Positions 12,118 to 26,126 of a stretch of DNA of 27,116 nt are shown in pieces. Each line of letters starts with the position of its first letter. Positions within the stretch are counted from its first letter, which is position 1. The translations under genes were made by a program, and so were the position numbers. Under the pieces are notes generated by a model. The model was given only the letters and a program-made list of their open reading frames with translations, had not been told where the DNA came from and did not search any database. Origin of the DNA: a virus; the IMG/VR virus record IMGVR_UViG_3300008122_000024, positions 1 through 27,116 of that record. One strand, given 5' to 3'.

Positions 12118-13116
12118 ATGAACCACGTAGTTTCCTTTTCGGGCGGAAGAACGTCCGCCTATCTTGTTCACCTTATCGAATCAATGCGAAAGTCTGGCGA
12201 ATGGACTGAGCCAGTCGAATATATTTTCATGGATACAGGCGCTGAACATCCAAAAACATACGAATTTATCAAGAAGTGCGTTGAGCATTTTGGGGTTGAG
12301 CTTACTTGTTTGCAAGGCGATTTTAATCAACCTGTGGGCACCGGACACACTTACAAAGTTGCTTCAATCGAAGAGTGCAAGCACGATATGGTTAACGGGC
12401 CGTTTGCGCAACTGATGCGCAAATATGGCGCGCCAACAGTTATGTCAGCTTGGTGTACTAGTCGTATGAAAGAAGAAACCCATGATAAATACTGCGATGA
12501 TAAGTATGGCAAGGGTAATTACATAACTTGGCTAGGCATCCGCGCAGACGAGCCTCGCAGATTAAAGATTGGCAGAAACCCAAAAATACGATACATGGCA
12601 GAAATTACAGACTTTGAAAAAGATGATGTCCTGGATTTTTGGGTTAACTCTAAATTTAGAATGTCAAAAATACACACCAAAAATAAAAAAGTTAGATTCA
12701 AATTAAGTTCATGCAAGGTGCATTATTGGAGTCATTTTGATTTAGAAATCCAAGAGCATTTAGGTAACTGTGTTTTTTGCATCAAGAAATCAATCAATAA
12801 ATTAGCACTAGCCGCGCGCGATGAGCCAGAATTAGCGGCTGATTGGGTTGCAGCGATAGAGGCTGGAAGCGACAGATTAAGCCAGCCAAAAGAAAAGAAG
12901 ACGGATGGTTTATTCGTTGAGACATACACGCAACACATTAAGAAAGGCGTTATGTATCGCGGCAGCAATACGATAGAGTCAATCATTGCAAAATTCTCCC
13001 TGCACTCACGCGAAGAAATCTACGATTCAATACGCAGCATGAAACGCAAAGAATCGGGTGGCTGCACAGAGTCATGCGAGGCATTCGCAACAGACCAGCC
13101 AGACCTTTTTGACTAA
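12118..13116 (+). CDS. PAPS-reductase-family (PP-loop type) phage enzyme with a 29-residue insertion
   Basis: About 332 residues from ATG 12118. It has the adenine-nucleotide alpha-hydrolase signature SGGRTSAY near the N-terminus, followed by YIFMDTGAEHPKTYEFIKKC, SAWCTSRMK, WLGIRADEPRRLK, FEKDDVLDFW and LGNCVFCIKKS. Phages carry this family widely, but most members have no shown function; sulphur or nucleotide chemistry, including DNA modification, is a guess. Residues 176-204, between DFW and SHFDLEI, are an AT- and lysine-rich stretch that I do not recall in relatives, where the two sides are nearly adjacent. The CxxC pair downstream is kept. It has its own promoter and a hairpin over its ribosome site. 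An ATG at 12091 lies inside that hairpin and is rejected. Confidence 0.8.
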   Translation: MNHVVSFSGGRTSAYLVHLIESMRKSGEWTEPVEYIFMDTGAEHPKTYEFIKKCVEHFGVELTCLQGDFNQPVGTGHTYKVASIEECKHDMVNGPFAQLMRKYGAPTVMSAWCTSRMKEETHDKYCDDKYGKGNYITWLGIRADEPRRLKIGRNPKIRYMAEITDFEKDDVLDFWVNSKFRMSKIHTKNKKVRFKLSSCKVHYWSHFDLEIQEHLGNCVFCIKKSINKLALAARDEPELAADWVAAIEAGSDRLSQPKEKKTDGLFVETYTQHIKKGVMYRGSNTIESIIAKFSLHSREEIYDSIRSMKRKESGGCTESCEAFATDQPDLFD

Positions 13117-13117
13117 C

Positions 13118-13154
13118 TGGTCTAATCTGTAATCCGGCAAAGTAGTGGTATTGT
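13118..13154 (+). promoter_or_regulatory. motif promoter P-a (TGGTC plus -10)
   Basis: ACTGGTCTAATCTGT (from 13116) has its TGGTC box at 13118, with an extended -10 TGGTATTGT whose hexamer starts at 13149, 31 bases on. It lies just after the PAPS-reductase-like gene and about 25 bases before ATG 13179. It is one of four or five similar sites in the window. Confidence 0.5.
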
Positions 13155-13178
13155 GGCGTTTTTGGTAGAGGTATCAAT

Positions 13179-13358
13179 ATGAGCAACCAAGGCGCTTGGA
13201 AATTAACGCCACTAACGCCATGCAGCGTGGAACGAGTTGTGCGAGAGCTAGACGAAGCATTCAGTCGCGCCAATCCTGACCACAAGCGGGTTAAGTCGCC
13301 TGCTGAGCAGTTTGATGATGGCTATGCGGAGTGGGTAAAAAATGGGAGGGAGTCATGA
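13179..13358 (+). CDS. hypothetical 59-residue protein
   Basis: Reads MSNQGAWKLTPLTPCSVERV, then VRELDEAFSRANPDHKRVKS and FDDGYAEWVKNGRES. Helical and charged. GAGG lies 8 bases before the ATG, downstream of a proposed promoter (13118-13154). ATGA overlap with the next gene. First gene of the last early block. Not recognised. Confidence 0.6.
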   Translation: MSNQGAWKLTPLTPCSVERVVRELDEAFSRANPDHKRVKSPAEQFDDGYAEWVKNGRES

Positions 13359-13492
13359 AAATCCGCATATCAAGAGCAAACACAGCGCACCCACTGCTGC
13401 ATACACTTTTTAACATTCCGCCAGCACGCATTGACTTGCTTCTTGAATACTACGACGAACTTATTTGGCATTTTAAAAACGGGAGAGATTGA
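13355..13492 (+). CDS. hypothetical 45-residue protein
   Basis: Reads MKIRISRANTAHPLLHTLFN, then IPPARIDLLLEYYDELIWHF and KNGRD. A short basic-fronted helix protein. GGAGGGAG just upstream is a strong ribosome site, and the ATG overlaps the previous stop. The TGA directly abuts the ATG of the next gene. Not recognised. Confidence 0.55.
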   Translation: MKIRISRANTAHPLLHTLFNIPPARIDLLLEYYDELIWHFKNGRD

Positions 13493-14047
13493 ATGAGCAT
13501 CTATAACAACGGGGCTGCCACATTAACCGCTGGCGACATTGAGCGCATGCAGCAACGCATTGCAGAGCTTGAGCGCGAAAAAGCAGAGCTTTTGGTGCAG
13601 GTGGCTGATGCGTTTGGTGATGGTTATTACGATGGTTTTCTTGACGGTGCAAAACACCATGAAAAAACCGATTGCAACACTGATAAGAATTATCTTGGCG
13701 ATCACGCAATGTACTGCTCCGAGATTGCAGAAAATAAAAAATCAAAGCGGCTCGGGATTGTCAGTCGCCAAGAGCTGGCGGCTCAGGTTGAATACGTCAA
13801 ATCGCATTTTAACGAGTTAATACAAGTCGCGCAGCGCTGCGATTCTTGGGAATCATTTCCTCAAGAACCATTAGACAGAGCTGCTGAAGCGCTTGAGTCG
13901 CTGCCAGCCCAATGCCTAAACCAAATCAAGGCAGAGGTTATAGCAAAGTCTGCTGATTGGCTGCACTCTAATTACCCGCACCTTGCCAATCCGGCTTGCG
14001 GCTTATTGATGCACCACGCTGAGCGCGTTAAGGCTGGTGAGGTGTGA
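13493..14047 (+). CDS. hypothetical phage protein with N-terminal coiled coil, 184 residues
   Basis: Residues 15-40 (DIERMQQRIAELEREKAELL) form a clear coiled coil. A FGDGYYDGFLDGAKHH segment follows, of a type frequent in phage accessory proteins. The middle includes RQELAAQVEYVKSHFNELIQ and DRAAEALESLPAQCLNQIKA; the end carries SADWLHSNYPHLANPACGLL. GGGAGAG precedes the ATG, which directly follows the stop of the previous gene. Soluble; likely an oligomer. Function unknown. Confidence 0.7.
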   Translation: MSIYNNGAATLTAGDIERMQQRIAELEREKAELLVQVADAFGDGYYDGFLDGAKHHEKTDCNTDKNYLGDHAMYCSEIAENKKSKRLGIVSRQELAAQVEYVKSHFNELIQVAQRCDSWESFPQEPLDRAAEALESLPAQCLNQIKAEVIAKSADWLHSNYPHLANPACGLLMHHAERVKAGEV

Positions 14048-14199
14048 AATTCTTACTCTGGAAGTTCCGATTATGGCTTTACATTAAACGTCATTGCGAG
14101 TTCACAAATGGCTGGCAAGGCTGGGCAGATTGGCGAGAAATGTACGACTTTGATTTAAGTCCGGCAGAGGCGTTTGCTGAAGCTCATAGGGATGTTTAG
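14044..14199 (+). CDS. small phage protein of the WKFRLWLYIKRH type, 51 residues
   Basis: Starts with GTG at 14044 (overlapping the previous stop) and reads MKFLLWKFRLWLYIKRHCEF, then TNGWQGWADWREMYDFDLSP and AEAFAEAHRDV. The W-x-GW-x-DW-x-E-M-Y-DF-D-LSPAEA pattern recurs in short phage proteins. The front is hydrophobic and basic and could touch the membrane. Function unknown. Confidence 0.65.
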   Translation: MKFLLWKFRLWLYIKRHCEFTNGWQGWADWREMYDFDLSPAEAFAEAHRDV

Positions 14200-14200
14200 T

Positions 14201-14572
14201 ATGAACCAATCACAAAAAGAGTTTGAGGCGTGGGCCGCTGAAAATGAATGGGATGTCGCAAAATACGATGGTTCATATTTAAATTGCTACACTGCAGCAT
14301 CGTGGGCAGGCTGGCAAGCCTCACGCGCCGCGCTGGTTGTTGAGCTGCCAAATTATTATGAATTTGATACAGTTAGCGCATTTTGCAGCGATGTAGAAGA
14401 TAGGTTAGAAGCCGCAAATCTGCATCGTGTTTGTGTTGATAGTGATAGCGGTGATTGTTTTAGCGTTTCAATTTCCGCTCGCAGTCATCGCAATAATGCT
14501 GATATTATTAGCACTCAGAAACTAGCCGCTGTTGCGGCTTTTTTTATGCTTGACAATCGGCTATACTTTTAG
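14201..14572 (+). CDS. hypothetical 123-residue protein whose end contains the terminator
   Basis: From ATG 14201: MNQSQKEFEAWAAENEWDVA, then YLNCYTAASWAGWQASRAAL, a widespread phage pattern (FEAW...Y....TxxAWxGWQASRAA). The second half VVELPNYYEFDTVSAFCSDV...IISTQKLAAVAAFFMLDNRL is weaker. The hairpin and T-run of the terminator at 14524-14545 lie inside its last codons and encode KLAAVAAFFM. The protein may thus often be truncated at the message level, or the true message ends here. Last gene of the early region. Confidence 0.65.
   Translation: MNQSQKEFEAWAAENEWDVAKYDGSYLNCYTAASWAGWQASRAALVVELPNYYEFDTVSAFCSDVEDRLEAANLHRVCVDSDSGDCFSVSISARSHRNNADIISTQKLAAVAAFFMLDNRLYF
14524..14545 (+). terminator. 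intrinsic terminator ending the early region
   Basis: AGCCGC (14524-14529), loop TGTT, GCGGCT (14534-14539) and a seven-T run to 14545 make a strong hairpin terminator. It closes the early gene block, about 56 bases before terS, and lies inside the 3' end of gene 14201. Confidence 0.75.
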
Positions 14573-14601
14573 CTGTTTAATTGTCAAGAGATTGTGATTT
14601 T

Positions 14602-15210
14602 ATGCCTGCCCCAAGTGGTAATCAGTTTTGGAAAGCCAGAGCTTCGCATGGGCGAGATAGGATTATATCGTGCCCGAAAGTGCTCATGGATTCGTGCCAT
14701 GAGTATTTCGAGTGGGTTGATAATAACCCGCTCATGGAGGCTAAGCCGTTTGCATTTCAAGGCGCAAGCTGGGTTGAGAGCGTACCCAAAATGCGAGCTA
14801 TGACAATCAACGGGTTGTGCATATTTCTTGGTATCAGCATGGATACTTGGCGGAGATGGCGGGACTGCGAGGATAAAGATTTCTGCGCAGTCATACGCGA
14901 AGTGGAGTGCATTATACGCGAACAGAAGTTCACCGGAGCCGCCGCCGACCTACTCAACCCAAACATCATAGCGCGCGATTTGGGGCTGAATGACAAACCA
15001 TCTTCCGAGCTTGTCTCATTTAAATTTGATGAAAAATTATCATCAGTCGAAAATGCCAACAACCTAATCAAGTTAATAGCCAGCGGGGTGCTACCTGCTG
15101 ATATTGGCGCAACGCTTATTTCAACATTAAAAGACACGCTCCAAATCCAAGAATCCACAGAACTAATCCAGCGCTTAGAAGCTATCGAAGCTGCGCTAAA
15201 GGGGAAATAA
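14602..15210 (+). CDS. terS: terminase small subunit, P22 gp3 type
   Basis: About 202 residues from ATG 14602. It follows P22 gp3 closely: MPAPSGNQFWKARASHGRDR at the front, then CHEYFEWVDNNPLMEAKPF, PKMRAMTINGLCIFLGISMD, TWRRWRDC, EQKFTGAAADLLNPNIIARD and LGLNDKPSS. Gp3 recognises the packaging site and feeds DNA to the large subunit. The earlier frame start at 14581 has no ribosome site, and the family start fits ATG 14602. It begins the late structural region, but the large subunit lies more than 5 kb downstream, which is unusual. AAGAGA about 10 bases upstream is a weak ribosome site. Confidence 0.9.
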   Translation: MPAPSGNQFWKARASHGRDRIISCPKVLMDSCHEYFEWVDNNPLMEAKPFAFQGASWVESVPKMRAMTINGLCIFLGISMDTWRRWRDCEDKDFCAVIREVECIIREQKFTGAAADLLNPNIIARDLGLNDKPSSELVSFKFDEKLSSVENANNLIKLIASGVLPADIGATLISTLKDTLQIQESTELIQRLEAIEAALKGK

Positions 15211-15211
15211 T

Positions 15212-15454
15212 ATGTCATTAGTAACTTCAGCACAGCCGTACGAGTTTGGGCAGTCATTTCGCAACGACACGAAAATCCTGATTGGCGTAACTCTAAACGG
15301 GGGTACGGTTGTCATCCAGCAGCTTGTTAACGGCACATGGCAGAACACTAGCGATTCACTTGCTACAAATGACACCTACCGGTTAGAAGTTGGTGGCGGC
15401 GGCGTATCATTACGCATCGTGTGCACCGGCGCGGCAGTTGTGGAAGTGCCGTAA
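15212..15454 (+). CDS. small phage protein next to the fibre gene, 80 residues
   Basis: Reads MSLVTSAQPYEFGQSFRNDT, then KILIGVTLNGGTVVIQQLVN and RLEVGGGGVSLRIVCTGAAV. A beta-rich small protein with no cysteine pairs. Its stop forms TAATG with the fibre gene's start, so the two are co-translated. The type is common next to phage tail genes and may be a virion decoration or fibre helper; unproven. Confidence 0.65.
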   Translation: MSLVTSAQPYEFGQSFRNDTKILIGVTLNGGTVVIQQLVNGTWQNTSDSLATNDTYRLEVGGGGVSLRIVCTGAAVVEVP

Positions 15455-16584
15455 TGGCCATTGTAAAGCGGGGTATATCAACCGCTGGCATATCGCAGAC
15501 TGGCATAGCTACTCGTGGTATCTCTGTCGTTGATAGGGTTTGTTATGCTTATAACTTCGACGGCATCGACGATCGAGGCCAACTGGCTAATCGGGCGATT
15601 AATATTGAGGGTGATAACACTTTTGAGTTTTGGAGTCCTGCTGTTGTAATGACTGCTACCCAGGCTATCATCTCGCAGAACATCACATCAAATTCGGCAT
15701 CTATGGAGTTTCAGCTTTTCACAGCGTCTGGCGGTTTGGAAGTGATTTACGGCGGCGCGCCTAGGGTCGTTATTATGACGCAAGCGCAGGGTTTTAAATC
15801 TTCAACCCGATACGGCCTAACGCTAATAGGCTCCGAGGCTAAGCTTTATGAGGGCGGTCTAGGCGGTACACTGGTCCGCACATCTGGATTTACCCGTGGT
15901 ACAGCAAGAGAACCAACAGCGCCAACACTAATAGGTTGCCGGGGTAATGGTACAGGCGCTTATGCTAACTTCTTCTCCGGCCTACAATACGACATCAAAA
16001 TAAACGGCGTCCTGTGGGAAATGGGCGACAGGAATCAGTCTATTCAGCTTCCTACGCCGACGGGGTTGGGGGCTGAGTTGATTACGCAGAGCGTTCTTGA
16101 AAATCCTGCCAGCAAGGGTAGTCAGTGGGCTTATCTTGGTGGGGGGCGGTGGCAATACATAGGCGACGGGCAAGGCGGCTTGCAGTTCTTGCTGCCTGCA
16201 AACATCCCCGAGCAAGGATTTATTGAGTACGAAGTTGAGTCCTACCAGCAAGTGACTGGCGTTGGCCCTATGCGCGTCAGCCCTACCACCACTAACTTTT
16301 TTGGTGACAGGCTATTCAATACTCTTGGTAGAAAAAAAGCGTACTACACAGTTAAGCCTGCATCCATTGAGTTCACACGGAATAACTCCGGCGATCAAAT
16401 CAATTGTGTAATCAAAAACATCAGCTTTAAACCACTAGGCACCTGCAACCCGATGACCATATTCAACACAACAAACGACCGCTGGCAGCAAGTGCCTTGC
16501 CGCATCAACACAGAAGGCGTGCAAGTCCAAGGCGGCGCGTTTATAACTACTAGCGACAACAAGAAAGTTGAGGTACTAAAATGA
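15454..16584 (+). CDS. tail fibre-like protein with a LamG/concanavalin-like domain, 376 residues
   Basis: From ATG 15454 (TAATG). The first 24 residues are short repeats (RGIS/AGIS/TGIA/RGIS). A laminin-G/concanavalin-like domain follows: AYNFDGIDDRGQLANRAINI, NTFEFWSPAVVM, SNSASMEFQLF, LEVIYGG and STRYGLTLIGSEAKLYEG. The rest (residues 190-376) is beta-rich. Such domains bind sugars, so the protein is probably a receptor-binding fibre or spike part. It overlaps the next fibre gene by ATGA. Placed between terS and terL rather than at the end of the late genes. Confidence 0.65.
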   Translation: MAIVKRGISTAGISQTGIATRGISVVDRVCYAYNFDGIDDRGQLANRAINIEGDNTFEFWSPAVVMTATQAIISQNITSNSASMEFQLFTASGGLEVIYGGAPRVVIMTQAQGFKSSTRYGLTLIGSEAKLYEGGLGGTLVRTSGFTRGTAREPTAPTLIGCRGNGTGAYANFFSGLQYDIKINGVLWEMGDRNQSIQLPTPTGLGAELITQSVLENPASKGSQWAYLGGGRWQYIGDGQGGLQFLLPANIPEQGFIEYEVESYQQVTGVGPMRVSPTTTNFFGDRLFNTLGRKKAYYTVKPASIEFTRNNSGDQINCVIKNISFKPLGTCNPMTIFNTTNDRWQQVPCRINTEGVQVQGGAFITTSDNKKVEVLK

Positions 16585-18365
16585 CGGATAATGTAGTCCT
16601 ACCCATCACGGGCGAAGAGTTGCAAACCTTGATTGCCACTATCAAGAATGGCGGCATTCAAGGCACAGGCGTCAACGGCTATCGTTTTGCGATGAATTCG
16701 ACGAGCGGAAAGCTTGAGCTTTACAAAGAAGATACGCTGATTGCAGTACAGGACGATGACGGCTCATGGTTTAAGACTGCCGTGTCAACTGGCGTTGGAT
16801 CTTTGCACTTGGGTGGCGGCGTGTCCAGCACACCAAGCCATAGCGTATCATCGGCTGGTCAGAATGTTGTGTTCAAATCAGAGGCGTTCAACTCAGACCC
16901 GAACAAAGCTATCGTATGGTTCCCTGCGGGATGGCAAGGTATTACCGCGGATTTGACTGGATTAAACCCGCCAACATTCCTATCGTTTGGGTCAATTGAT
17001 AACGCTTTCGCACCAAACGGATCGGTACAATCGGCTGGCGTTGCATTCGACTTCGACACAACAATCGCTGCTAATATCTGCGTGGCGTCAATCACGTGCG
17101 TTGCGCACGAAGCATACTCTGGCGTCATCAAAAACATCATTCGAGCTACAGCGACAGGCTCGGAAACGCACGAGTCAAGTGCAACGATTAACGTAACTGC
17201 TGGGCAGTCTTTCACCGTGACTTATCCGGCATGCTATTTTGCCCGCCAAAACGACAGCCTTAATTTGCAGATGATTAAATCCGACGGTCAGCCTTTAATG
17301 GTTCGGGGCGGCACAACTAATGCCGCGCAGCCGTGGCGAGCGTTGCGGGTTCGGCCGTTTACTGATGTTTCTATCGCTCCGTTGGATGGTTGGGCGGCCA
17401 ATCGCATGATGCGCACCAATGCGTCTGGCGTCATGACAGCATCAACAATACTGCAACCAAGCCGAGCCATTGTTTCGGACGCTAACGGCATACTGACGCA
17501 ATCGGAAGTTACTTCAACAGAAGTATCTGTAATCGACGGCAGTACAGCTAGGGATAACTCAGTGATTATCGCCGACACTGACGGCTTTGTTTTTAACGAC
17601 AATGGCCAGATGATGCAGTTAGCGGCCAGCCGCGTTCTTGACTACATGCAAAGGAAATTCAAGGGTAATATTGCGCAAAACGGCGACATAAAAGAAGCTT
17701 ACAGAACCGACGATCACGATGGCTGGATCCTGATGAACGGTCGCTTTGTTAGCTCGCTAACAACCACCCAGCAACAGGTATGCACGCTTTTGGGGATTTC
17801 TAGCCAGATACCAACCAGCATGGATAGGTACGTTGTCGGTGCAGGATTAAGTCACTCTGTTGGCGCGCTGGTTGGCTCTGTTAAAATTGCTCGGTCTGCG
17901 CTCCCAAACGTGACGTTAGGTTTTAACGTAAACTCTGGGAATGCTAGTCAGGGGCATACGCACAGCATTGACCCGCCAGCCACGACCACCAGCGGAGGTA
18001 CGGCGCACAGTCACGGCGCTGGCAATCTTAATACAGTCCCCGGCACAGGAAACCATGAGCATAAATATGACCGCATGGGCGTGCGTGGCGCTTCTGGCAG
18101 TGATTTTAACGTTGGCAACGGCTCCAACAGCGAAACACAAACCACAGGCACTGGAGCGCACACTCACACAATCCAAGGTAGCACGTCTGACGAAAGCACG
18201 CACACCCATAGCGTAAATATTGCGGCGTTCATATCTGCCGGAGAGTCGCAGAGTCATACGCACAACGTCACTGGCAGCACGGACAGTATGAACGGAAATG
18301 TGCAGCAAACAGATTATCTGCCCAGCTCAATTGCGTTCGGCCGATTCATTTACTTGGGTTTATGA
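16581..18365 (+). CDS. tail collar/fibre protein with six H-x-H motifs near its C-terminus
   Basis: 594 residues. The front repeats the modular style (VVLPITGEELQTLIATIKNG, YRFAMNSTSGKLELYKEDTL). The middle is beta-rich. The C-terminal third starts GDIKEAYRTDDHDGWILMNG, a phage tail collar-type fold, then glycine/serine/threonine-rich loops with GHTHSIDP, AHSHGAG, NHEHKYD, AHTHTIQG, THTHSVNI and SHTHNVTG. Histidine triplets of this H-x-H kind bind iron in the T4 long-fibre tip. The final segment YLPSSIAFGRFIYLGL is the usual end of collar fibres. It is probably the receptor-binding tip of the tail. ATGA overlap with the preceding gene. Confidence 0.8.
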   Translation: MTDNVVLPITGEELQTLIATIKNGGIQGTGVNGYRFAMNSTSGKLELYKEDTLIAVQDDDGSWFKTAVSTGVGSLHLGGGVSSTPSHSVSSAGQNVVFKSEAFNSDPNKAIVWFPAGWQGITADLTGLNPPTFLSFGSIDNAFAPNGSVQSAGVAFDFDTTIAANICVASITCVAHEAYSGVIKNIIRATATGSETHESSATINVTAGQSFTVTYPACYFARQNDSLNLQMIKSDGQPLMVRGGTTNAAQPWRALRVRPFTDVSIAPLDGWAANRMMRTNASGVMTASTILQPSRAIVSDANGILTQSEVTSTEVSVIDGSTARDNSVIIADTDGFVFNDNGQMMQLAASRVLDYMQRKFKGNIAQNGDIKEAYRTDDHDGWILMNGRFVSSLTTTQQQVCTLLGISSQIPTSMDRYVVGAGLSHSVGALVGSVKIARSALPNVTLGFNVNSGNASQGHTHSIDPPATTTSGGTAHSHGAGNLNTVPGTGNHEHKYDRMGVRGASGSDFNVGNGSNSETQTTGTGAHTHTIQGSTSDESTHTHSVNIAAFISAGESQSHTHNVTGSTDSMNGNVQQTDYLPSSIAFGRFIYLGL

Positions 18366-18366
18366 T

Positions 18367-18630
18367 ATGAGTCAATACGCAGTAATAACAAAAGCCAGCT
18401 ACAACACGGACGCCGTAGCGCAGTCAATCAGCCAGTCGCCAAGGGTATTTACGTACCAAGGCGTTGAGCTGGTTATTTTGTCCATCGAGCCAAGCCAGTT
18501 GCAGCGGCTGATTGATTACGCTAATTCAATCGGAAGCGGAATTGAGCACGAGCTAACCATTGGCAGCGGTAAGGTCACGTTGTTGACTCATGCGCAAGCT
18601 GTGGCGTTGATGGCGCAAGTTGAAAGTTAA
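18367..18630 (+). CDS. hypothetical 87-residue protein after the fibre gene
   Basis: From ATG 18367, directly after the fibre stop: MSQYAVITKASYNTDAVAQS, then ISQSPRVFTYQGVELVILSI and SGIEHELTIGSGKVTLLTHA. A mixed alpha-beta small protein. It may be a fibre assembly helper by position, but that is a guess. Its end is followed at once by the motif promoter at 18632-18669, so the fibre unit probably ends here. Not recognised. Confidence 0.65.
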   Translation: MSQYAVITKASYNTDAVAQSISQSPRVFTYQGVELVILSIEPSQLQRLIDYANSIGSGIEHELTIGSGKVTLLTHAQAVALMAQVES

Positions 18631-18631
18631 C

Positions 18632-18669
18632 TGGTCGGACTTGTATAGCGCGATGGATTGCGCTAGTAT
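18632..18669 (+). promoter_or_regulatory. motif promoter P-b with palindromic operator
   Basis: ACTGGTCGGACTTGT (box at 18632) is followed by TTGTAT (18641-18646), a 17-base spacer and TAGTAT (18664-18669). The spacer is the palindrome AGCGC-GATGGATT-GCGCT (18647-18664), close to the one at 8686-8703. It should drive rightward transcription after the fibre block. Confidence 0.55.
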
Positions 18670-18698
18670 TTGGCTTGTCGGTTTAGGGTTGTGGGTTC

Positions 18699-18890
18699 AT
18701 GGCCGCCGACGAACCTCTTATCTTAATTGTTGGGATGTTCAAAAAAAGGTCAGTGCTTCCGCCAAGTTGCTTACTGACCTTATACAGATTAAGTTACCGC
18801 AGACGCGGTGCAGTTTATTGGTTTGGTGTTTCACGCGACCCCTGCGATACGTGGGTATCGGGAATTTTAACAGTAGACTTATGCAAGTGA
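18699..18890 (+). CDS. possible 63-residue protein (weak)
   Basis: ATG 18699 follows the promoter P-b; AGGGT is about 9-10 bases upstream. The frame reads MAADEPLILIVGMFKKRSVL, then PPSCLLTLYRLSYRRRGAVY and GVSRDPCDTWVSGILTVDLC. Basic middle, no known family. The minus-strand terminator at 18740-18781 lies inside it, and opposing frames overlap, so the coding orientation here is unsure. Confidence 0.35.
   Translation: MAADEPLILIVGMFKKRSVLPPSCLLTLYRLSYRRRGAVYWFGVSRDPCDTWVSGILTVDLCK
18740..18781 (-). terminator. leftward intrinsic terminator
   Basis: On the minus strand AAGGTCAGT (18781-18773) pairs perfectly with ACTGACCTT (18754-18746) across 18 bases, and a run of seven T follows (18747-18741). 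It would end leftward transcripts, such as one from the minus-strand gene at 18879-19055. Confidence 0.6.
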
Positions 18891-19087: not shown

Positions 19088-19164
19088 GCACCATTAGCGC
19101 AATTGGATAGCGCAGCGTCGTTCTAAGTCGTAGGTTGCAGGTTCGAATCCAAGCACTTCGACCA
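19088..19164 (+). tRNA. tRNA-Arg(UCU)-like sequence with unpaired 3' end (chimaeric or dead)
   Basis: The 77 bases have full tRNA length and layout: D arm GCGC-AATTGGATA-GCGC, anticodon stem GCGTC/GTCGT (one T-T mismatch) with loop GTTCTAA holding anticodon TCT, T loop TTCGAAT, and encoded CCA at 19162-19164. The 5' acceptor strand GCACCAT and T-stem strand GCAGG cannot pair with the 3' strands CACTTCG and CCAAG. The 3' part would instead suit a tRNA-Pro-like gene (acceptor start CGAAGTG). Hence the likely fusion of two tRNA ends at the T loop. Charging as a real tRNA is doubtful. Confidence 0.45.
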
Positions 19165-19357
19165 CTTTCACGCTTGGCAACAAAGGCAGATTACAGAGAT
19201 TAGACTGGCACTCCTGAGCCGCATTGCTACTCTGTATGAATTTGTTGCAGCCGAGGGATTTTTTCGCACAGCCTCCGTGCGGGTTTTAACCTTTTCAGCC
19301 AGTGACTGCAACTGGTGGCGACGATGCAGACCAGAACAAGAGTTATGTTTTTATTTA

Positions 19358-19381
19358 CCCGCTTCGGCGGGTTTTTCTTTT
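19358..19381 (+). terminator. strong intrinsic terminator
   Basis: CCCGC (19358-19362), TTCG tetraloop, GCGGG (19367-19371) and TTTTTCTTTTTA make a textbook terminator. It separates the tRNA-like stretch from the late unit that follows. Confidence 0.85.
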
Positions 19382-19384
19382 TAG

Positions 19385-19421
19385 TGGTCGGAGCAGTTAA
19401 AATAGAATCTTATGCTAATAT
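19385..19421 (+). promoter_or_regulatory. motif promoter P-c before the HNH-AP2 gene and the terL-portal run
   Basis: TAGTGGTCGGAGCAGT starts at 19383 with its TGGTCG box at 19385; TAATAT lies at 19416-19421, 31 bases from the box. It directly follows the terminator at 19358-19381, so it would start a fresh transcript for the downstream late genes. Confidence 0.5.
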
Positions 19422-19425
19422 TGAA

Positions 19426-19479: not shown

Positions 19480-19511
19480 ATCTAATTCAGGAGTCTCAGA
19501 GGGTAGAGATT

Positions 19512-20129
19512 ATGGCTGGTTTTAACAAGATGTTATTCGGTGTCGGAATAAACGATGCAAGCTACGTAACAAAACACTTCAAGACAATTGAAGGAAAGAA
19601 AAAGCTTGTGTGGTACTGCTTAATTCATTCTACTTGGTACAGCATGCTTTCAAGATGCTACTCTGAGCAAGCAAAAACAAAATACAAGTCTTACGAAAAT
19701 TGCTCTGTATGCAATGAGTGGCTGACCTTTAGCAACTTCAAAGCGTGGATGGACACGCAAGACTGGCAAGGGAAGCAGCTTGATAAGGATCTCCTGCATA
19801 GAGGCAATAAGATATACAGCCCAGAATCATGTTTATTTGTAGAGCCGATTGTAAACTACTTTATAATTGAGCAGTCCAACCGGAGAGGAAATTACCCCAT
19901 TGGGGTATCTTGGCATAAAGGAATAGGTAAATTTGTTTCAAGCTGTTCAAACCCATTCAGTGGAAAAAAAGAGCATTTAGGAACTTTTTCATGCCAAAAA
20001 TTAGCGCACTCCGCATGGCTTAAGCGCAAGAGAGAATTGGCAATTCAATTAGCCGGCACGCAATCAGATAAACGAGTAGCTGAATCTTTGATGGTTAGGT
20101 ACTCCAACGAGAGTTACAAAAACACATGA
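19512..20129 (+). CDS. HNH-AP2 type homing endonuclease-like protein (copy 2)
   Basis: 205 residues, same build as the gene at 2808-3395: NCSVCNEWLTFSNFKAWMDT, LDKDLLHRGNKIYSPESCLF, then AP2-like PIGVSWHKGIGKFVSSCSNP and HLGTFSCQKLAHSAWLKRKR. The N-terminus MLFGVGINDASYVTKHFKTI also matches copy 1 (VCGVGVNDSD). GAGGG lies 9 bases upstream, and the leader is folded (19426-19479). It stands alone between the tRNA-like region and the lysis-type genes, a typical place for a self-moving gene. Complete; activity unknown. Confidence 0.85.
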   Translation: MAGFNKMLFGVGINDASYVTKHFKTIEGKKKLVWYCLIHSTWYSMLSRCYSEQAKTKYKSYENCSVCNEWLTFSNFKAWMDTQDWQGKQLDKDLLHRGNKIYSPESCLFVEPIVNYFIIEQSNRRGNYPIGVSWHKGIGKFVSSCSNPFSGKKEHLGTFSCQKLAHSAWLKRKRELAIQLAGTQSDKRVAESLMVRYSNESYKNT

Positions 20130-20196
20130 CGCAGGCTACTTGCGCCTACCGCCAGAAAAGAACTAAACTAGCGTTGCCAACATAGGAGCAAGCAAC

Positions 20197-20253
20197 ATGG
20201 CAGTAAAGCAAAAGAAGCCGCGCACTAACGGCACGAAGCCACCAAAAAAATGA
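20197..20253 (+). CDS. 18-residue basic leader peptide
   Basis: Reads MAVKQKKPRTNGTKPPKK. The ribosome site GGAG 9 bases before the ATG is strong, and the stop forms ATGA with the start of the membrane protein at 20250. It may only serve to couple translation of the next gene, or be a tiny basic peptide of its own. Found in a gap that otherwise has no gene. Confidence 0.5.
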   Translation: MAVKQKKPRTNGTKPPKK

Positions 20254-20672
20254 CAGCATTCAACGCTGACATACTGACGATGGCGGCATTCTGTGCCGCT
20301 GTTTTCATTAACAGGCAGGCAGTTTTGCTTGTTGCTACTCATTGCTTTTTGTGGCTTCTGTTTTTAACTCCGGTGTCAGACTTCTGGTTCAGCCTATCAT
20401 CAGCCATTATTTGCGCCACAGCCGCCACAGCATTCATCAAATTAAAATCACAGCTCCGTTATGCCATGCTATGTACGGCAGGGTTATACTATCTAGGCTC
20501 GATTGATGCGTTCTTGTTCCCAGCAACCGAAACACTGTATTACAATTCAATAGGCTGGTTCATTGGCGCGGTGGATTTGTACGCGCTTTTTATTGTCTGC
20601 TACGGAGGGCGCAAACGTGCTGGAGTTGGTCGCCCTTTTTATTGGTGGGTTTTTCGTCTACAATCGCATTAA
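20250..20672 (+). CDS. phage membrane protein with about four membrane segments
   Basis: 140 residues: MTAFNADILTMAAFCAAVFI, then LLVATHCFLWLLFLTPVSDF, FWFSLSSAIICATAATAFIK, and AMLCTAGLYYLGSIDAFLFP, ending with a basic tail GGRKRAGVGRP. Four hydrophobic stretches point to the inner membrane. Such proteins are common beside phage lysis genes. Start coupled to the 20197 peptide (ATGA). The C-terminal end overlaps the 20617 gene by 56 bases in another frame. A holin-like role is a guess. Confidence 0.65.
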   Translation: MTAFNADILTMAAFCAAVFINRQAVLLVATHCFLWLLFLTPVSDFWFSLSSAIICATAATAFIKLKSQLRYAMLCTAGLYYLGSIDAFLFPATETLYYNSIGWFIGAVDLYALFIVCYGGRKRAGVGRPFYWWVFRLQSH

Positions 20673-20769
20673 GGCAACAGTTAACATTTGCAAGCGAGAG
20701 CGATTACGTGAACTTAGGCACAAAAGACGGATGGCACGACTTAGCCAGCGCAATCAATCCAATACTTGA
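20617..20769 (+). CDS. small membrane protein with basic tail, 50 residues
   Basis: Starts with GTG at 20617: LELVALFIGGFFVYNRIKAT, then a strongly basic tail KRERLRELRHKRRMARLSQR. GGAGG 7-8 bases upstream is an excellent ribosome site. One membrane helix plus a charged tail is the layout of small holin or lysis-accessory proteins; in this window it lies between membrane genes just before terL. It overlaps both neighbours in other frames. Function unknown. Confidence 0.6.
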   Translation: MLELVALFIGGFFVYNRIKATVNICKRERLRELRHKRRMARLSQRNQSNT

Positions 20770-21028
20770 TTCTGTTCAGTACAAAATCTATACGTGGTTC
20801 GCTGGACTTTCGGTTGGCTACCAAATCAGCAGCAGTAAGCCGGATTGGCTGCCGGAGTGGGTTCAGCCAATCATGTTGCAGCTCCATCAGATATCCATCC
20901 TCGAATCAATCACCGCTTGGGGCGTCATCATGCTGGCGGTTGAAAGGACGTTCGCGGCAGTCATTAGATTTAACCAGTGGCGTCGAGAGCGGCAGCTGGC
21001 TAAGCGCCGAGAGTCCGCCAAGCAATGA
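20708..21028 (+). CDS. putative holin-like membrane protein, 106 residues
   Basis: From GTG 20708 (GAGAG 7 bases upstream): NLGTKDGWHDLASAINPILD, then YKIYTWFAGLSVGYQISSSK, then LESITAWGVIMLAVERTFAA and a basic tail NQWRRERQLAKRRESAKQ. Two hydrophobic segments with a charged tail fit a class II holin-like protein. It ends on an ATGA overlap with terL. The longer frame start at 20642 falls within the previous gene and lacks a site. No endolysin gene is visible in the window, so the lysis role is only by layout. Confidence 0.5.
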   Translation: MNLGTKDGWHDLASAINPILDSVQYKIYTWFAGLSVGYQISSSKPDWLPEWVQPIMLQLHQISILESITAWGVIMLAVERTFAAVIRFNQWRRERQLAKRRESAKQ

Positions 21029-22683
21029 AACGCCTAACTTCCGCCAAGCTTGCTGCTGTTGAGAGTCTTGTTTCTGCCGCCAATACTGAGGCGGTTGGAT
21101 TTATCTTCGGCTTGGTGCATCCTGAGCGCGGACTAACAAAAAACATCATGTTAGAGGATGGCAAGTGGATTGAGACTGAGCAGCCTGCAACTTGCTACAT
21201 AGCCGACTGTTTAGAGCCTGCACTAAAAACCAAGAAAAAATACATTGTGATTATCGGCGGTCGCGGCTCGTCAAAGTCGGTCGGTATTGCTGACATTATT
21301 CTGTTTCGAGTGGCACAGCTAAAACACAAGGCGTTTTGCATCCGCGAATACATGGCCAACATCAGCAAGTCGGTTCACGCCCTGATGAAAGAGGAAATAA
21401 AACGGCTTAACCTTGAAGGATTCCGCCCGCTGTTGACATCAATCCACCACAATCGCGGCGGTGAAATTCAATACTCAGGCATTGCAACCAACCCTGACGG
21501 TATAAAATCAGCGGCTGGATTTAATATTTTTGCATCTGAAGAAAGCCAATTTTACAGCCAGAAATCGCTGGATATACTGACACCGACAGCGCGTAACGCC
21601 GCTAAGTCAGGATTGCCAACGCGGTTTGACCCAGAAAAGCAAGCAGAAGCCGCCGAAGAAGATGTCACCGACAACGCGCAAATGTTTTTTATTGGCAACC
21701 CAGCATCAAGCGCCGACCCGTTCAGCAGGCGGTTTATAGTGCCGTTCAAAGATGTACTAGACCGTGACGGCATTTATGAAGATGATTTGCACCTCATAAT
21801 CAAGATGAACTACAACGATAACCCATGGTTTCACGACTCAGGATTAGAGGCTGACCGCCTGTTTTGCTATAACAACTTTTCACGGGCTATGTACGACCAC
21901 ATTTGGGAAGGAGAGTTCAACGACCATGTAGAAGATGCGATCATTCCGGCCGAGTGGTTTGATGCTTGCGTTGATGCTCATATCAAGCTCAAGTGGAAAG
22001 ATACTGGCGCCAACTTTGTGGCGCACGACCCAGCAGACAGCGGGGATAATAAAGCTTTTGCACACCGCCGCGGTTCGGTCATGGTTAAAGTGTGGGACAT
22101 GGCAGACGGTGACGCAAACAGCGCTTGCGACGTCGCCACGAGCTACGCAATCAACGCTGGTGCCAACGTATTTGTATTCGACGCTCAAGGCCTTGGTTTG
22201 TCACTGAGGCGTCAAATTAATGACAGCTTCACCGGTAAAAATATCGAGATTAAAGAATTTTTCGGCTCTGGCGGCGTAGAAAACCCCGACGAAGCTGCGG
22301 ATATGCAATCTGACGGCACAACAAACGCAGTGCTAAACGGTCAGCTATTTGCCAACATTAGAGCGCAGAGGTATTACGAATTGCGCCAGCGCTGCTACAA
22401 GACACACAGGGCGGTTATTCACGGAGACTACATCGACCCAGCGGAGATGATTAGTTTTGCAAGTGAAGGTATCAACATTCCGGCGCTACGCTCAGAGATG
22501 TGCCGCATACCACGCAAGCGCACTGGTAACGGCGTGTTTCAGGTGCTAAGCAAAGACGACATGAAAAAACTAGGTATGAAGTCACCCAACATGACCGACG
22601 CAGTAATAATGACTCTATGCGACTATAATCCAATAAAAATGGTAGACTATTCCAAATTCAACATTCCAAGCACTGGATGGTAA
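21025..22683 (+). CDS. terL: terminase large subunit
   Basis: 552 residues. ATPase half: Walker A GGRGSSKS (78-85), Walker B NIFASEES (167-174), coupling segment MFFIGNPASSADPFSRRF. Nuclease half: HDPADSGDNKA with Asp335, VFVFDAQGLG with Asp386 and NMTDAVIM with Asp525, the three acidic residues of the RNase H-like site. It pumps DNA into the prohead and cuts it at the end. It begins on ATGA with the membrane gene and is followed 3 bases later by the portal gene. Complete. Confidence 0.95.
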   Translation: MKRLTSAKLAAVESLVSAANTEAVGFIFGLVHPERGLTKNIMLEDGKWIETEQPATCYIADCLEPALKTKKKYIVIIGGRGSSKSVGIADIILFRVAQLKHKAFCIREYMANISKSVHALMKEEIKRLNLEGFRPLLTSIHHNRGGEIQYSGIATNPDGIKSAAGFNIFASEESQFYSQKSLDILTPTARNAAKSGLPTRFDPEKQAEAAEEDVTDNAQMFFIGNPASSADPFSRRFIVPFKDVLDRDGIYEDDLHLIIKMNYNDNPWFHDSGLEADRLFCYNNFSRAMYDHIWEGEFNDHVEDAIIPAEWFDACVDAHIKLKWKDTGANFVAHDPADSGDNKAFAHRRGSVMVKVWDMADGDANSACDVATSYAINAGANVFVFDAQGLGLSLRRQINDSFTGKNIEIKEFFGSGGVENPDEAADMQSDGTTNAVLNGQLFANIRAQRYYELRQRCYKTHRAVIHGDYIDPAEMISFASEGINIPALRSEMCRIPRKRTGNGVFQVLSKDDMKKLGMKSPNMTDAVIMTLCDYNPIKMVDYSKFNIPSTGW

Positions 22684-22686
22684 CAG

Positions 22687-24753
22687 ATGGCCAGATTTAG
22701 CAAAGAGCGCCTAGCAGATTGGCATGCAACGGCAAAGGACTTAATCAATAAAACAGTCAACAACGAAGCATTGCGACAACAGCGCGAAAAGATTATCGAG
22801 ACCAACCGTTTCGTGCGTGTTGTTGGTGCGCAGTGGGAAGGTCAGACGTTTAACGGTACCGACCTTCGCGAGCGGATGGACAAGTATCCGCGCTTTGAGG
22901 TCAATAAGCTGCTGAAAGAAATCCGCCGGATTAGCTCGGAGATGCGCAAGAACCGCATTAACGTGCAGTTCAAGCCAGCTACTGGCGAGGATAACCAGAA
23001 GCTAAGCGACAAAGCAAACCGCAAATTTCGCGCTGATTACGTCGAGTCTAACGGAGACTACGCCATTACCAACGCATACGAGGACGCGATTACAGGCGGC
23101 TTTGGTGCTTTCCGGTTGTGCGCTGAATACGAGGACGAGCTGGACCCAGGCAACGAGGACATGTGCATCAAGTTTAAAGCCGTCTTTGATGCTGCATCAT
23201 CTGTGTTTTTTGATGAAACCAGCCGCGAGATGGACAAGCAGGATGCCATGTGGGCGACTGACATCTTTGGCATGCCTGCCGCATCATTCCGAGAAGAGTA
23301 TAAGCGCGACGGCTATTCAATCAACATCATCAACAGTGGGCGCAATCAAGACTTTTGTGCGCCGGATTTGGTTTACATTGCGCGCTACTACGAAGTGAAA
23401 ATAGAACGTGACGAGCTGGTGACGTATACCAATCCGCTACTGGGCGAGACCGCTGTTTATTTTGAAAGCGAGCTAGACGACGAAACGTTGGAGCAGCTTG
23501 AAGTTGATGTGGTCTACTTCGAAACCGGACGCCGCAAAGTGAAGCGCCGCCGTGTCTATTGCGGAACGATGGACGGTGAAGGGTGGTTAGACAAACCGGA
23601 GTTATTGCCGTTTGAGTATATCCCGATCATCCCAGTTTATGGCCAACGCTGGTTTGTTGATGGTCAAGAGCGGGTGCAAGGTCACGCCACCTCAGCGCGT
23701 GATGTGCAGCGGCTGGATAATCTCATGGTTTCCATGCTGGCGGATGCGGCAACGCTTGGCACTGAAGGAACGCCGATTGTGCCAGTTGAAATGCTCAATG
23801 ATGCGTTTATGAAAACGTGGGGCGGTCGAAACAAGAACAGACCAGCATTTCTGCCGATTACTGCGCTGCGCGACAAAGCAGGCAATCCAGTGGCATACGC
23901 CGAGGCTATCGGCTACACGCAGCCAGCGCAGCTTAACCAAGGCATGGTTGGCCTGTTGCAGTATACTGGCCAGTCAATCCAAGACCTAACAGGTGCGATG
24001 GGTGATGGCGCTATCCCATCAAATATGGCTGAGGATACCGTCAACGCACTAATCAATCGCAGTGACGCACACGCTGGCGTCTATATGGACAACCTAAGCT
24101 TTTCCATGCAACACGCTGGGCGAGTGTGGTTGTCGGCAAGTAAAAACGTTTACTCAGGCAACAAAAAGCGCTCAATGATTAGCGAAGAAGGCGAAGAAGC
24201 GTTCGAAGAAATGGACGGCATCGACAAAGCCAAGCTGAAAGTCGTCGTCGATGTCGGCGCAGACTTTACGACACGCAGAGACCAAACCGTCAGTAAATTG
24301 ACGCCTATTTACTCAGCGACACCGCCAGATAACCCGAATCATCCTATCATTTTGTCGATGATCATCGACAACCTAGAGGGTGAAGGGCTGGACGACTTGC
24401 GCAAGTACAACCGCAAACAGCTGTTGTTACAAGGCGTTGTCGAGCCTAAAAACGATCAAGAACGGGGAATGCTGGAAGAGCAGGCGCAGGCTGAGGAAAA
24501 CCAGCAGCCTGACGCTAATACCATGCTTGCACAAGCGGAAATGGAAAAGGCCAATGTACAACGCGAGAAGGCTCAGCTAGACTATACAGTCGAAGTGGCA
24601 AGACTACAGATTGAAGCAGCAAGGCTTGAGCTGGAAGCGGCAAAGGTTGGCGCAGAGATTAACCTAAAACAAGTTCAGTCATTGAAAATCGAAAGCGAGG
24701 TATTCAAAAATGTACGTGAAGCTAGCAACGGAGCGGGTTTACAAGAAGGGTGA
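22687..24753 (+). CDS. P22-type portal protein
   Basis: 688 residues. The front NEALRQQREKIIETNRFVRV, the VGAQWEGQTFNG and KYPRFEVNKLLKEIRRISSE stretches, RFRADYVESNGDYAITNAYE, GGFGAFRLCAEYEDE, and the centre GHATSARDVQRLDNLMVSML with AEAIGYTQPAQLNQGMVGLL match portal proteins of P22-like phages. The C-terminal part (about 600-680) is a long coiled coil, QQPDANTMLAQAEMEKANVQ through QIEAARLELEAAKVG, probably the barrel of the portal. Twelve copies form the DNA gate. It starts 3 bases after terL and its end overlaps the 53-residue gene. Complete. Confidence 0.92.
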   Translation: MARFSKERLADWHATAKDLINKTVNNEALRQQREKIIETNRFVRVVGAQWEGQTFNGTDLRERMDKYPRFEVNKLLKEIRRISSEMRKNRINVQFKPATGEDNQKLSDKANRKFRADYVESNGDYAITNAYEDAITGGFGAFRLCAEYEDELDPGNEDMCIKFKAVFDAASSVFFDETSREMDKQDAMWATDIFGMPAASFREEYKRDGYSINIINSGRNQDFCAPDLVYIARYYEVKIERDELVTYTNPLLGETAVYFESELDDETLEQLEVDVVYFETGRRKVKRRRVYCGTMDGEGWLDKPELLPFEYIPIIPVYGQRWFVDGQERVQGHATSARDVQRLDNLMVSMLADAATLGTEGTPIVPVEMLNDAFMKTWGGRNKNRPAFLPITALRDKAGNPVAYAEAIGYTQPAQLNQGMVGLLQYTGQSIQDLTGAMGDGAIPSNMAEDTVNALINRSDAHAGVYMDNLSFSMQHAGRVWLSASKNVYSGNKKRSMISEEGEEAFEEMDGIDKAKLKVVVDVGADFTTRRDQTVSKLTPIYSATPPDNPNHPIILSMIIDNLEGEGLDDLRKYNRKQLLLQGVVEPKNDQERGMLEEQAQAEENQQPDANTMLAQAEMEKANVQREKAQLDYTVEVARLQIEAARLELEAAKVGAEINLKQVQSLKIESEVFKNVREASNGAGLQEG

Positions 24754-24871
24754 TGAAGGTTTTGCTCTAATCCACATCGAGCATGACCGCTGGGAAATTA
24801 CCGACACGCCGAATGATGCGCTAGATGGCGCAGAGTATAAAGAGCAAAAGCCTGAAAAGGCTAAAGCTTAG
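24710..24871 (+). CDS. 53-residue protein overlapping the portal end (intact copy of a duplicated gene)
   Basis: ATG 24710 lies inside the portal gene in another frame (44-base overlap). It reads MYVKLATERVYKKGDEGFAL, then IHIEHDRWEITDTPNDALDG and EYKEQKPEKAKA. Acidic-basic small protein, not recognised. It ends before the terminator at 24876-24895. Its 3' part from 24765 is repeated at 25529-25635 without the 5' part. Between the copies the four coding differences (24857-24868 region) all fall in third codon positions and keep the amino acids. Confidence 0.65.
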   Translation: MYVKLATERVYKKGDEGFALIHIEHDRWEITDTPNDALDGAEYKEQKPEKAKA

Positions 24872-24895
24872 TGATAAAGCCCCTTATGGGGCTTT
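24765..24895. repeat. duplicated 3' end plus terminator, copy 1
   Basis: Bases 24765-24895 match 25529-25660 almost exactly (offset 764): the last 107 bases of the 53-residue gene and its terminator. Four third-position substitutions and one small change near the stop separate them. Direct repeats about 0.76 kb apart. Confidence 0.9.
24876..24895 (+). terminator. intrinsic terminator after the portal unit
   Basis: AAAGCCCC-TTAT? stem pairs AAAGCCCC (24876-24883) with GGGGCTTT (24888-24895) around a 4-base loop, then an AT-rich tail. It stops rightward transcripts before the leftward genes of the island. Confidence 0.7.
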
Positions 24896-24897
24896 AT

Positions 24898-25236
24898 TTA
24901 TTTATCCATGCGGGACAAGATAAAGTATTTTAATTTATCGTATGTTGTTGCATAGCCGCCTTTTATACGAAGGTGTAAAGACAGCTCCAGAACGGCTCTT
25001 AGTCGATCCTCTTTATCTTTCTTGTCATACCAAATGAACTGCTCATCAAATGTAACTCTATGCAATCTAGGCGTTAGCCAGATGTTTTCGCGTTCAATGG
25101 ACTGCCTGAACGCAGCAAGAAAGCTGTCTGCGGCTAGAGATTTTAGAGTTGATACATAAACTGGCTTACCAAAAAGATATTGCTCTGGCTGTTCATTTTT
25201 CCGCCTGCACATATACACATCATAGGTTTTATTCAT
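24898..25236 (-). CDS. leftward accessory protein, MNKTYDVY family-like start, 112 residues
   Basis: From ATG 25236 (overlapping the upstream small gene as ATGAATAA): MNKTYDVYMCRRKNEQPEQY, then VSTLKSLAADSFLAAFRQSI, TPRLHRVTFDEQFIWYDKKD and a tail LKYFILSRMDK. Basic and soluble. Its first 11 residues and their DNA are almost identical to those of the gene at 25649-25840, while the rest differs. It faces the portal unit tail to tail. Accessory (moron-like) gene; function unknown. Confidence 0.6.
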   Translation of the reverse strand: MNKTYDVYMCRRKNEQPEQYLFGKPVYVSTLKSLAADSFLAAFRQSIERENIWLTPRLHRVTFDEQFIWYDKKDKEDRLRAVLELSLHLRIKGGYATTYDKLKYFILSRMDK

Positions 25237-25309
25237 TCCGAATCTCCATATTTTCAAGCTCTTTCAAAAATGCTTCTTTGAATACGCCATCTAAATTACC
25301 AAAAAACAT
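25229..25309 (-). CDS. 26-residue leftward small gene
   Basis: ATG 25309 with AAGGAAG just upstream reads MFFGNLDGVFKEAFLKELEN and ends MEIRNE. Its TAA overlaps the ATG of the 25236 gene (ATGAATAA). A TTG at 25348 would extend it. It may be a short functional peptide or only a coupling frame, remaining from a longer gene. The same frame continues upstream through a stop into the orphan fragment at 25358-25528. Confidence 0.4.
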   Translation of the reverse strand: MFFGNLDGVFKEAFLKELENMEIRNE

Positions 25310-25357
25310 TGCTTCCTTCGCCTTCCTGTCAATTTCAGACTTGACCAACCTTTCGCA

Positions 25358-25528
25358 TTATTTAACTGGCACAGGGTGCTCGACATTCATTTTATCTCGC
25401 AACTGTTCGGCGTACTGAACCAGTAGAGCTTTAACTTCAGGCGGTGCAACGCCATACATCGAATCTGTATAAATGAAAATCTTTCTGGCTGAAAACCAGC
25501 CATAGGATTGCAAGCCGTGAAACTCTGA
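25358..25528 (-). pseudogene. C-terminal fragment of a leftward gene cut by the repeat
   Basis: An open minus frame reads ESEFHGLQSYGWFSARKIFI, then YTDSMYGVAPPEVKALLVQY and AEQLRDKMNVEHPVPVK, stopping at 25358-25360. It has no start; upstream it runs into the repeat copy 2, where the frame stops. It looks like the end of a real protein whose front was removed when the second repeat copy joined here. Not recognised. Confidence 0.5.
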
Positions 25529-25635
25529 CTCTAATCCACATCGAGCATGACCGCTGGGAAATTACCGACACGCCGAATGATGCGCTAGATGGCGCAGAGT
25601 ATAAAGAGCAGAAGCCCGAGAAGGCGAAAGCTTAG
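25529..25635 (+). pseudogene. 3' remnant of the 53-residue gene (repeat copy 2)
   Basis: The frame LIHIEHDRWEITDTPNDALD and EYKEQKPEKAKA is identical in protein to the end of the 24710 gene, but no start or ribosome site precedes it; the frame opens after a TGA at 25474. All four substitutions are synonymous, which suggests selection on one of the two copies until recently. Confidence 0.75.
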
Positions 25636-25660
25636 TGATTGAAGCCCCTTATGGGGCTTT
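25529..25660. repeat. duplicated 3' end plus terminator, copy 2
   Basis: Second member of the direct repeat described at 24765-24895. It ends with a terminator that has a better T-run than copy 1. Confidence 0.9.
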
Positions 25661-25666
25661 TTTAAT
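25642..25666 (+). terminator. intrinsic terminator, repeat copy 2
   Basis: AAGCCCC (25642-25648) pairs with GGGGCTT (25653-25659) around TTAT? and is followed by a T-run (TTTTTT) to about 25663. The last codons of the leftward gene 25649-25840 are read from the same bases on the other strand. Confidence 0.8.
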
Positions 25667-25840
25667 ATATGGCTTCGGTCTACTTATCACAATTTTTCCG
25701 CCACAGGTTGTTAGCTCTTTACCCGATATAACACCAAGATGTATCGCCTCCCAGCGCGCTATTTCCTCATAAATCTGAAGAAGCACAGACTTTGGTTCGG
25801 TTGTGTTTCTGCACAAATACACATCATAGGTTTTATTCAT
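25649..25840 (-). CDS. leftward accessory protein with MNKTYDVY start, 63 residues (copy 2)
   Basis: From ATG 25840: MNKTYDVYLCRNTTEPKSVL, then LQIYEEIARWEAIHLGVISG and TTCGGKIVISRPKPYIKKAP. The first 11 residues repeat those of the 25236 gene; the rest does not. The C-terminal IKKAP is encoded by the repeat's terminator stem, so the present end was probably created by a join. The start overlaps the upstream gene as ATGAATAA, exactly as in copy 1. Function unknown. Confidence 0.55.
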   Translation of the reverse strand: MNKTYDVYLCRNTTEPKSVLLQIYEEIARWEAIHLGVISGKELTTCGGKIVISRPKPYIKKAP

Positions 25841-26045
25841 TTTTCCTACCGATCAAAATACCTGCCGCAACAAGCGAGATGTAAAACTTTGTGCTTGGCA
25901 GCTTGTTGTAATAATTCAGTATTTCATCAAATGTCATTTCGTTATCTTTGGCAATTTGAGTCATAGCCTCATTGATGGCAGATTGCAGCTCGTCTTGCGA
26001 ACAGTCTGGCAATATTTTAAAGTTTGCATTTAAGTTGTTTGACAC
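25833..26045 (-). CDS. leftward small protein with C-terminal membrane segment, 70 residues
   Basis: From GTG 26045 with a strong GGGAGG 6 bases upstream: SNNLNANFKILPDCSQDELQ, then SAINEAMTQIAKDNEMTFDE and LPSTKFYISLVAAGILIGRK. One hydrophobic stretch near the end (FYISLVAAGILIG). It starts the leftward unit of the island and is joined to the next gene by ATGAATAA. The longer frame from 26195 would cross the scaffold promoter and is rejected. Not recognised. Confidence 0.6.
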   Translation of the reverse strand: MSNNLNANFKILPDCSQDELQSAINEAMTQIAKDNEMTFDEILNYYNKLPSTKFYISLVAAGILIGRKNE

Positions 26046-26074
26046 TTTCAGCCTCCCATCATGGAATTTAGGAA

Positions 26075-26111
26075 ACAATAGCACACCCACTAAAAAACAC
26101 TGCTCCGACCA
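26075..26111 (-). promoter_or_regulatory. motif promoter P-d for the leftward island genes
   Basis: On the minus strand AGTGGTCGGAGCAGT has its TGGTCG box at 26111-26106 and the extended -10 TGCTATTGT with hexamer at 26080-26075, again 31 bases apart. It would drive gene 26045 leftward. It overlaps the upstream side of the scaffold promoter. Confidence 0.5.
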
Positions 26112-26126
26112 CTTAATGTCATTTAC

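Follow-up and report, generated by a model that had tools for sequence, protein, structure and literature searches.

Which protein switches on the promoter-like sites that recur in a phage genome, and is it supplied by the phage or by its host? The question is raised by a stretch of viral DNA of 27,116 nucleotides (nt) (IMG/VR record IMGVR_UViG_3300008122_000024, positions 1 to 27,116), here called the window. Its terminase, portal, scaffold, ninB and ninG genes mark this 27.1-kb fragment as P22-like phage DNA, and no nearly identical or closely related named phage was found for it. It contains five copies of a TGGTCKRANNNGT box, and a -10-like hexamer lies 31–32 bases 3' of the box at four of the five (distances are counted from the first T of the box to the hexamer). 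Judging from the sequence of the box and its placement, we consider it likely that these sites are promoters activated by the host FadR protein. A preliminary description of the window had listed boxes with hexamers at 13118, 18632 and 19385 on the plus strand and at 26111 and 8667 on the minus strand. All five were recovered, and the near-fixed spacing that it had noted was confirmed, with a distance of 32 at 18632 and of 31 at the other four. In the form TGGTC[GT][AG]AnnnGT the box is present five times in the window; 500 dinucleotide shuffles gave 0.09 on average and never more than 2. When TAnnnT at a distance of 31–32 is required as well, the window has four sites and the shuffles 0.002 on average and at most 1, so that pattern and spacing together are far rarer in shuffled sequence than in the window. 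The reversed pattern gave no matches over the window.

The box is probably the operator of host FadR, a regulator of the GntR family. The published FadR operator consensus, aaCTGGTCnGACC(T/A)Gtt, is 17 bp long (PMC9329746). Its left half and centre are matched at four window sites, with a right half that is relaxed, as in fabA. A scoring matrix was built only from 44 non-redundant phage sites, which had been chosen by the pattern of the preliminary description and hence independently of FadR, and was applied to 135 kb of E. coli K-12 sequence. The fabA FadR operator ranked first in its 30-kb region and the fadBA operator also ranked first; the fadI-side site came first in its 45-kb region, and in their respective regions iclR ranked second, fabB third and fadL fourth and sixth. 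Scores were 11.6–17.7 for the fabA/fabB operators and 19–26 for forms of the FadR consensus. Some of the phage sites are perfect palindromes, for example ACTGGTCGGACCAGT and AACTGGTCTGACCAGT. PdhR, LldR and similar regulators of the FadR subfamily have a TGGTnnnACCA-like operator core in common, and another host protein of this kind might bind the box. However, the PdhR operator AATTGGTAAGACCAATT scored -1.4/1.1 with the phage matrix and the best matches near lldPRD about 4, far from the values of the fabA/fabB operators. The PdhR operator pattern ATTGGTnnnACCAAT does not describe the phage sites either, as the base before TGGT is C or G and never T in the 44 sites. Binding by such a regulator is thus highly improbable.

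The layout of the sites also resembles that of host promoters. If transcription starts 7 bases past the hexamer, the FadR-operator-like box is centred at about -38, in the place of the -35 element, and an extended -10 often follows. The distance between box and -10 is 32 in E. coli fabA. The same distance is seen in oligonucleotides of E. coli fabB and of S. oneidensis fabA, the latter being bound by FadR and activated by FadR in E. coli (PMC4537474). Of 249 genomes sampled evenly across the phylum, 25 had some FadR_C match, at least 20 of them full-length. A fab-like pattern at distance 32 was detected in 12 of 20 FadR-positive genomes versus 2 of 20 without FadR_C. By tblastn, fabA or fabB was located just 3' of every tested site but one in FadR genomes and of neither of the two sites in genomes without FadR_C. 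The fabA promoter of one FadR-positive host genome (L113) has GTGGTCGGACTTGT, which contains the 13-mer TGGTCGGACTTGT of window site 18632 in identical form. Phage and host promoters are alike in operator sequence, in the position of the operator 5' of the -10 and in the -10 sequence (TATTGT in fabB), and the spacing agrees within one base (31–32 versus 32). They differ in that phage genes lie 3', the phage spacing is mostly one base shorter and the phage spacer lacks a host-type FabR palindrome, site 18632 having another palindrome there. The preliminary description had proposed a phage-specific activated promoter; this part of it is not supported, as the box fits the host FadR operator at nearly the host fabA/fabB position and the kind of promoter is already known from host genes. 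Literature searches of open-licence papers brought up no description of phage promoters under FadR.

Position is also informative on whether FadR would repress these genes, keeping them silent until acyl-coenzyme A (acyl-CoA) rises, or would be titrated by the sites with derangement of host lipid control. The fad genes of E. coli are repressed by FadR, and repressing FadR sites generally overlap the -10 or the +1, while activating ones lie 5' of the -35 (PMC9329746). The phage boxes sit upstream, often with an extended -10, and none of the window sites has a recognised -35. Moreover, the few sites per genome would titrate little FadR, and titration would not need a fixed spacing to the -10. 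Both repression and titration are considered very unlikely.

The preliminary description had placed the four intergenic sites of the window at starts of transcription units, and sites 13118, 19385 and 26111 each precede an open reading frame (ORF) with a ribosome-binding site. Site 26111 has the box AAGTGGTCGGAGCAGTG (26098–26114, minus strand; score 26.9 with the phage matrix) and an extended -10 (GTGCTATTGT) with the hexamer TATTGT at 26075–26080 on the minus strand (distance 31). It is followed 29 nt past the -10 by a 70-amino-acid (aa) ORF with a GTG start (25833–26045, minus strand), which opens a reverse-strand cassette located between portal and scaffold, and then by a 63-aa ORF (MNKTYDVYLC..., 25649–25840, minus strand) and a GGGGC hairpin. 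Across the reverse-strand portal/scaffold cassette (24750–26114, minus strand) the MNKTYDVY[LM]C ORF and the GGGGC hairpin are repeated, as if duplicated. Site 19385 has the box TAGTGGTCGGAGCAGTT (19382–19398, plus strand; score 24.5), directly 3' of an intrinsic terminator at 19357–19372, and an extended -10 (ATGCTAATAT) with TAATAT at 19416–19421 on the plus strand (distance 31). The first gene after it, with a ribosome-binding site, encodes an HNH endonuclease (19512–20129, plus strand). Site 13118 has the weakest box (TCTAATCTGT, within the operator-like AACTGGTCTAATCTGTA at 13115–13131, plus strand), which deviates from the FadR consensus in the centre and has the lowest score of the set (13.9). 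Its extended -10 (TGGTATTGT), TATTGT at 13149–13154 on the plus strand, lies at distance 31, and a ribosome-binding site and an ATG at 13179 begin a 59-aa ORF (13179–13358, plus strand) 24 nt past the -10. At site 18632, no clear ORF with a ribosome-binding site was found just 3'. This site has the box AACTGGTCGGACTTGTA (18629–18645, plus strand; score 23.4) and the -10 TAGTAT at 18664–18669 on the plus strand, at the distance of 32 found in host fabA/fabB. A standard sigma-70 scan of 18–20 kb picked up none of the sites there, as would be expected if the -35 box is absent.

The fifth box, TACTGGTCGGAGGAGTG (8654–8670, minus strand; score 23.6), lies in the end of ninG. It was not accepted as a promoter of the class because its hexamer, TGTACT at 8636 (distance 31), is poor; it may act on a plus-strand promoter near 8704 (TATACT). 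The palindromes AGCGCGATGGATTGCGCT (about 18647–18664) and AGCGCAATCAATTGCGCT (8686–8703) adjoin the -10s TAGTAT and TATACT, respectively. They are possible second operators, the one in 18632 being where host fabA/fabB have the FabR site. A degenerate tRNA-like remnant (GGTTCGAATCC ... CCA) is present at about 19090–19166 of the window, where ARAGORN calls no tRNA; tRNA and Rfam scans of the window gave no matches.

The promoter class was also found outside the window. Two metagenomic relatives (L001 and L002, portal 96–97% identical) have kept the 26111 box, its -10 and the spacing while the spacer has changed, and both carry further sites of the class. The class is represented in about 20 IMG/VR contigs and in the Pseudoalteromonas phages HS2 and BS5. 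The strict pattern with a spacing of 31 gave 22 matches in 20 IMG/VR contigs, and spacings of 27 or 35 (4 bases either way) each gave none. In 257 Gb of bacterial genomes the strict promoter pattern matched only twice (Alteribacillus and Pseudoruegeria), neither time in a gammaproteobacterium. A relaxed pattern was present in all 20 viral records searched, at about 45 places, with no match for the reversed control. Phage HS2 has TAnnnT at 31 for seven of seven boxes, and a ribosome-binding site and start within 25–31 nt at six of the seven listed. Phage BS5 has five sites, a sixth box without a good hexamer and a near-match, TGGTCGGGGCAGT, at 33411. The class occurs one to seven times per record in several unrelated phages, counts that do not measure its prevalence, as detection is biased to strict patterns. 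A ribosome-binding site and start codon lie within 90 nt at 40 of 52 unique sites (median 28 nt past the -10), versus 22% of random places, and the ORFs behind these promoters are mostly small and without known function, often accessory genes. One box is common to two divergent -10s in HS2 (16413/16423) and in BS5 (2636/2646), as a palindromic dimer site would allow. An activator box that replaces the -35 at a fixed spacing, with the class II geometry suggested in the preliminary description, thus recurs in unrelated phages with divergent spacers and has no matches at shifted spacings.

Inspection of other Pseudoalteromonas, Vibrio and Shewanella phages did not reveal the class, and a search of bacterial genomes by portal protein found no relatives of the window. 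The exact 16-mer AAGTGGTCGGAGCAGT occurs in 28 IMG/VR stretches; many of these have no -10 at 31 and are probably due to chance or coding. Records L044, L046 and L052 have divergent promoters that overlap around one perfect palindrome, ACTGGTCGGACCAGT. Vibrio phage 1.070.O (L068; host Enterovibrio norvegicus) has two FadR-like boxes at 43711–43795, one of them AACTGGTCGGAGCAGTT, in an unannotated stretch, and no -10 was found at 31 from these boxes near 43.7–43.8 kb. The sites might also be extended -10 promoters of the ordinary kind, their box being due to chance or hitchhiking, or parts of a dispersed mobile cassette; many of the -10s are preceded by TGn, and the reverse-strand cassette of the window carries such a promoter. 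The shuffles and shifted-spacing controls, the retention of the box while the spacer diverges and the divergent promoters with one common box make this extremely unlikely.

A FadR-like protein is encoded by some phages of the class. A stand-alone 77-aa FadR-like DNA-binding domain is present in contig L010 (9309–9539, minus strand), with a homologue in L012; both contigs were found via their boxes and carry the class. From its first residue onwards the protein can be aligned with the winged-helix domain of E. coli FadR (33% identity over 72 residues), and FadR proteins are its top hits in the PDB (E about 1e-4). The residues of FadR that contact DNA are R35, T44, R45, T46, T47, R49 and H65 (PMC4259882). 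Compared with FadR (PDB 1HW2, 1H9T, 4P96), the counterparts of R45, R49 and H65 are kept, T47 is kept in one of the two proteins, T44 is replaced by S, and T46 and R35 are lost. The acyl-CoA-binding C-terminal domain is absent, the protein ending at residue 77 and matching FadR residues 1–72 only. A single-sequence fold gave a predicted local distance difference test (pLDDT) score of 61, which is low confidence. The protein could be a ligand-blind activator or competitor. It would also suit a phage-encoded activator with an evolved preference for a FadR-like site, with host FadR irrelevant or a mere competitor, and a GntR scan would miss an activator with an unrelated DNA-binding fold. Such an origin of the activation seems very unlikely, however. 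A search without a positive control did not detect the 77-aa protein in 19 further viral records, most of which have boxes, and no GntR-family gene over the cut-off was detected in 11 viral records. In addition, the phages with these promoters are otherwise diverse, and the layout fits host fabA/fabB.

Under activation by host FadR, unliganded FadR of the infected cell would bind the box and recruit sigma-70 RNA polymerase (class II activation), helping it to use an extended -10 without a -35. Genes behind FadR boxes would then fire soon after phage entry, with no phage factor needed. They would be active while long-chain acyl-CoA is scarce and fall silent when it builds up and removes FadR. 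In the two phages with the FadR-like domain, this ligand-blind protein may take the place of host FadR at the boxes or compete with it for them. The host of HS2 has an annotated FadR (PMC11170926), and 67% of HS2 genes are expressed early (PMC7082346), which is compatible with host-driven promoters and is no proof of them. Several points weigh against activation by host FadR. Binding and activation at the boxes are deduced from sequence and FadR biology, and FadR in the host of the window phage is an assumption. Hosts of the metagenomic contigs are assigned only via nearest named relatives at 33–71% protein identity. The spacing is mostly 31 in the phages and 32 in host fab promoters, and the right half of the phage consensus is off the ideal operator (GAGCAGT versus GACCAGT). 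The matrix comes from pattern-selected sites, and the selection itself fixes part of it. Pooled spacing counts are inflated because the bipartite pattern served to fetch many of the contigs; the pooled statistics also include chance matches and are not used as proof. Finally, the class is missing from other phages of likely FadR hosts, namely H105/1, PHS3, H103, TW1, P23, 230E39-1 and ZP9.

Two known systems are comparable in part. Cyanophages reportedly make use of host PhoB (Zeng and Chisholm 2012, cited in PMC11170926). There, too, phage genes are under a host metabolic regulator; the signal is phosphate sensing by PhoR/PhoB, the regulator belongs to another family and the targets are phosphate-acquisition genes. 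Morons of lambdoid phages have their own promoter and a small accessory gene and often oppose the late operon, as does the window cassette at 25649–26114; we know of no common activator-dependent promoter type among them. As a tentative extension that we hold to be somewhat less than an even prospect, unrelated gammaproteobacterial phages may have wired gene sets into the host FadR regulon, which would make these genes conditional on the fatty-acid state of the host, some of the phages with a ligand-blind FadR fragment that would uncouple phage promoters (or host fab/fad genes) from the signal. The bipartite signature could serve promoter annotation in gammaproteobacterial phages. For HS2 and its Pseudoalteromonas host, an established virocell model, transcriptomes and lipid measurements have been published, so that a link between lipid state and phage expression is testable. 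Overall, the sites suggest that expression of these genes in several phages of marine and freshwater gammaproteobacteria depends on the lipid state of the host. If true, this would account for early and accessory phage genes that fire with no phage activator, and fatty-acid sensing would join the host signals read by phages.

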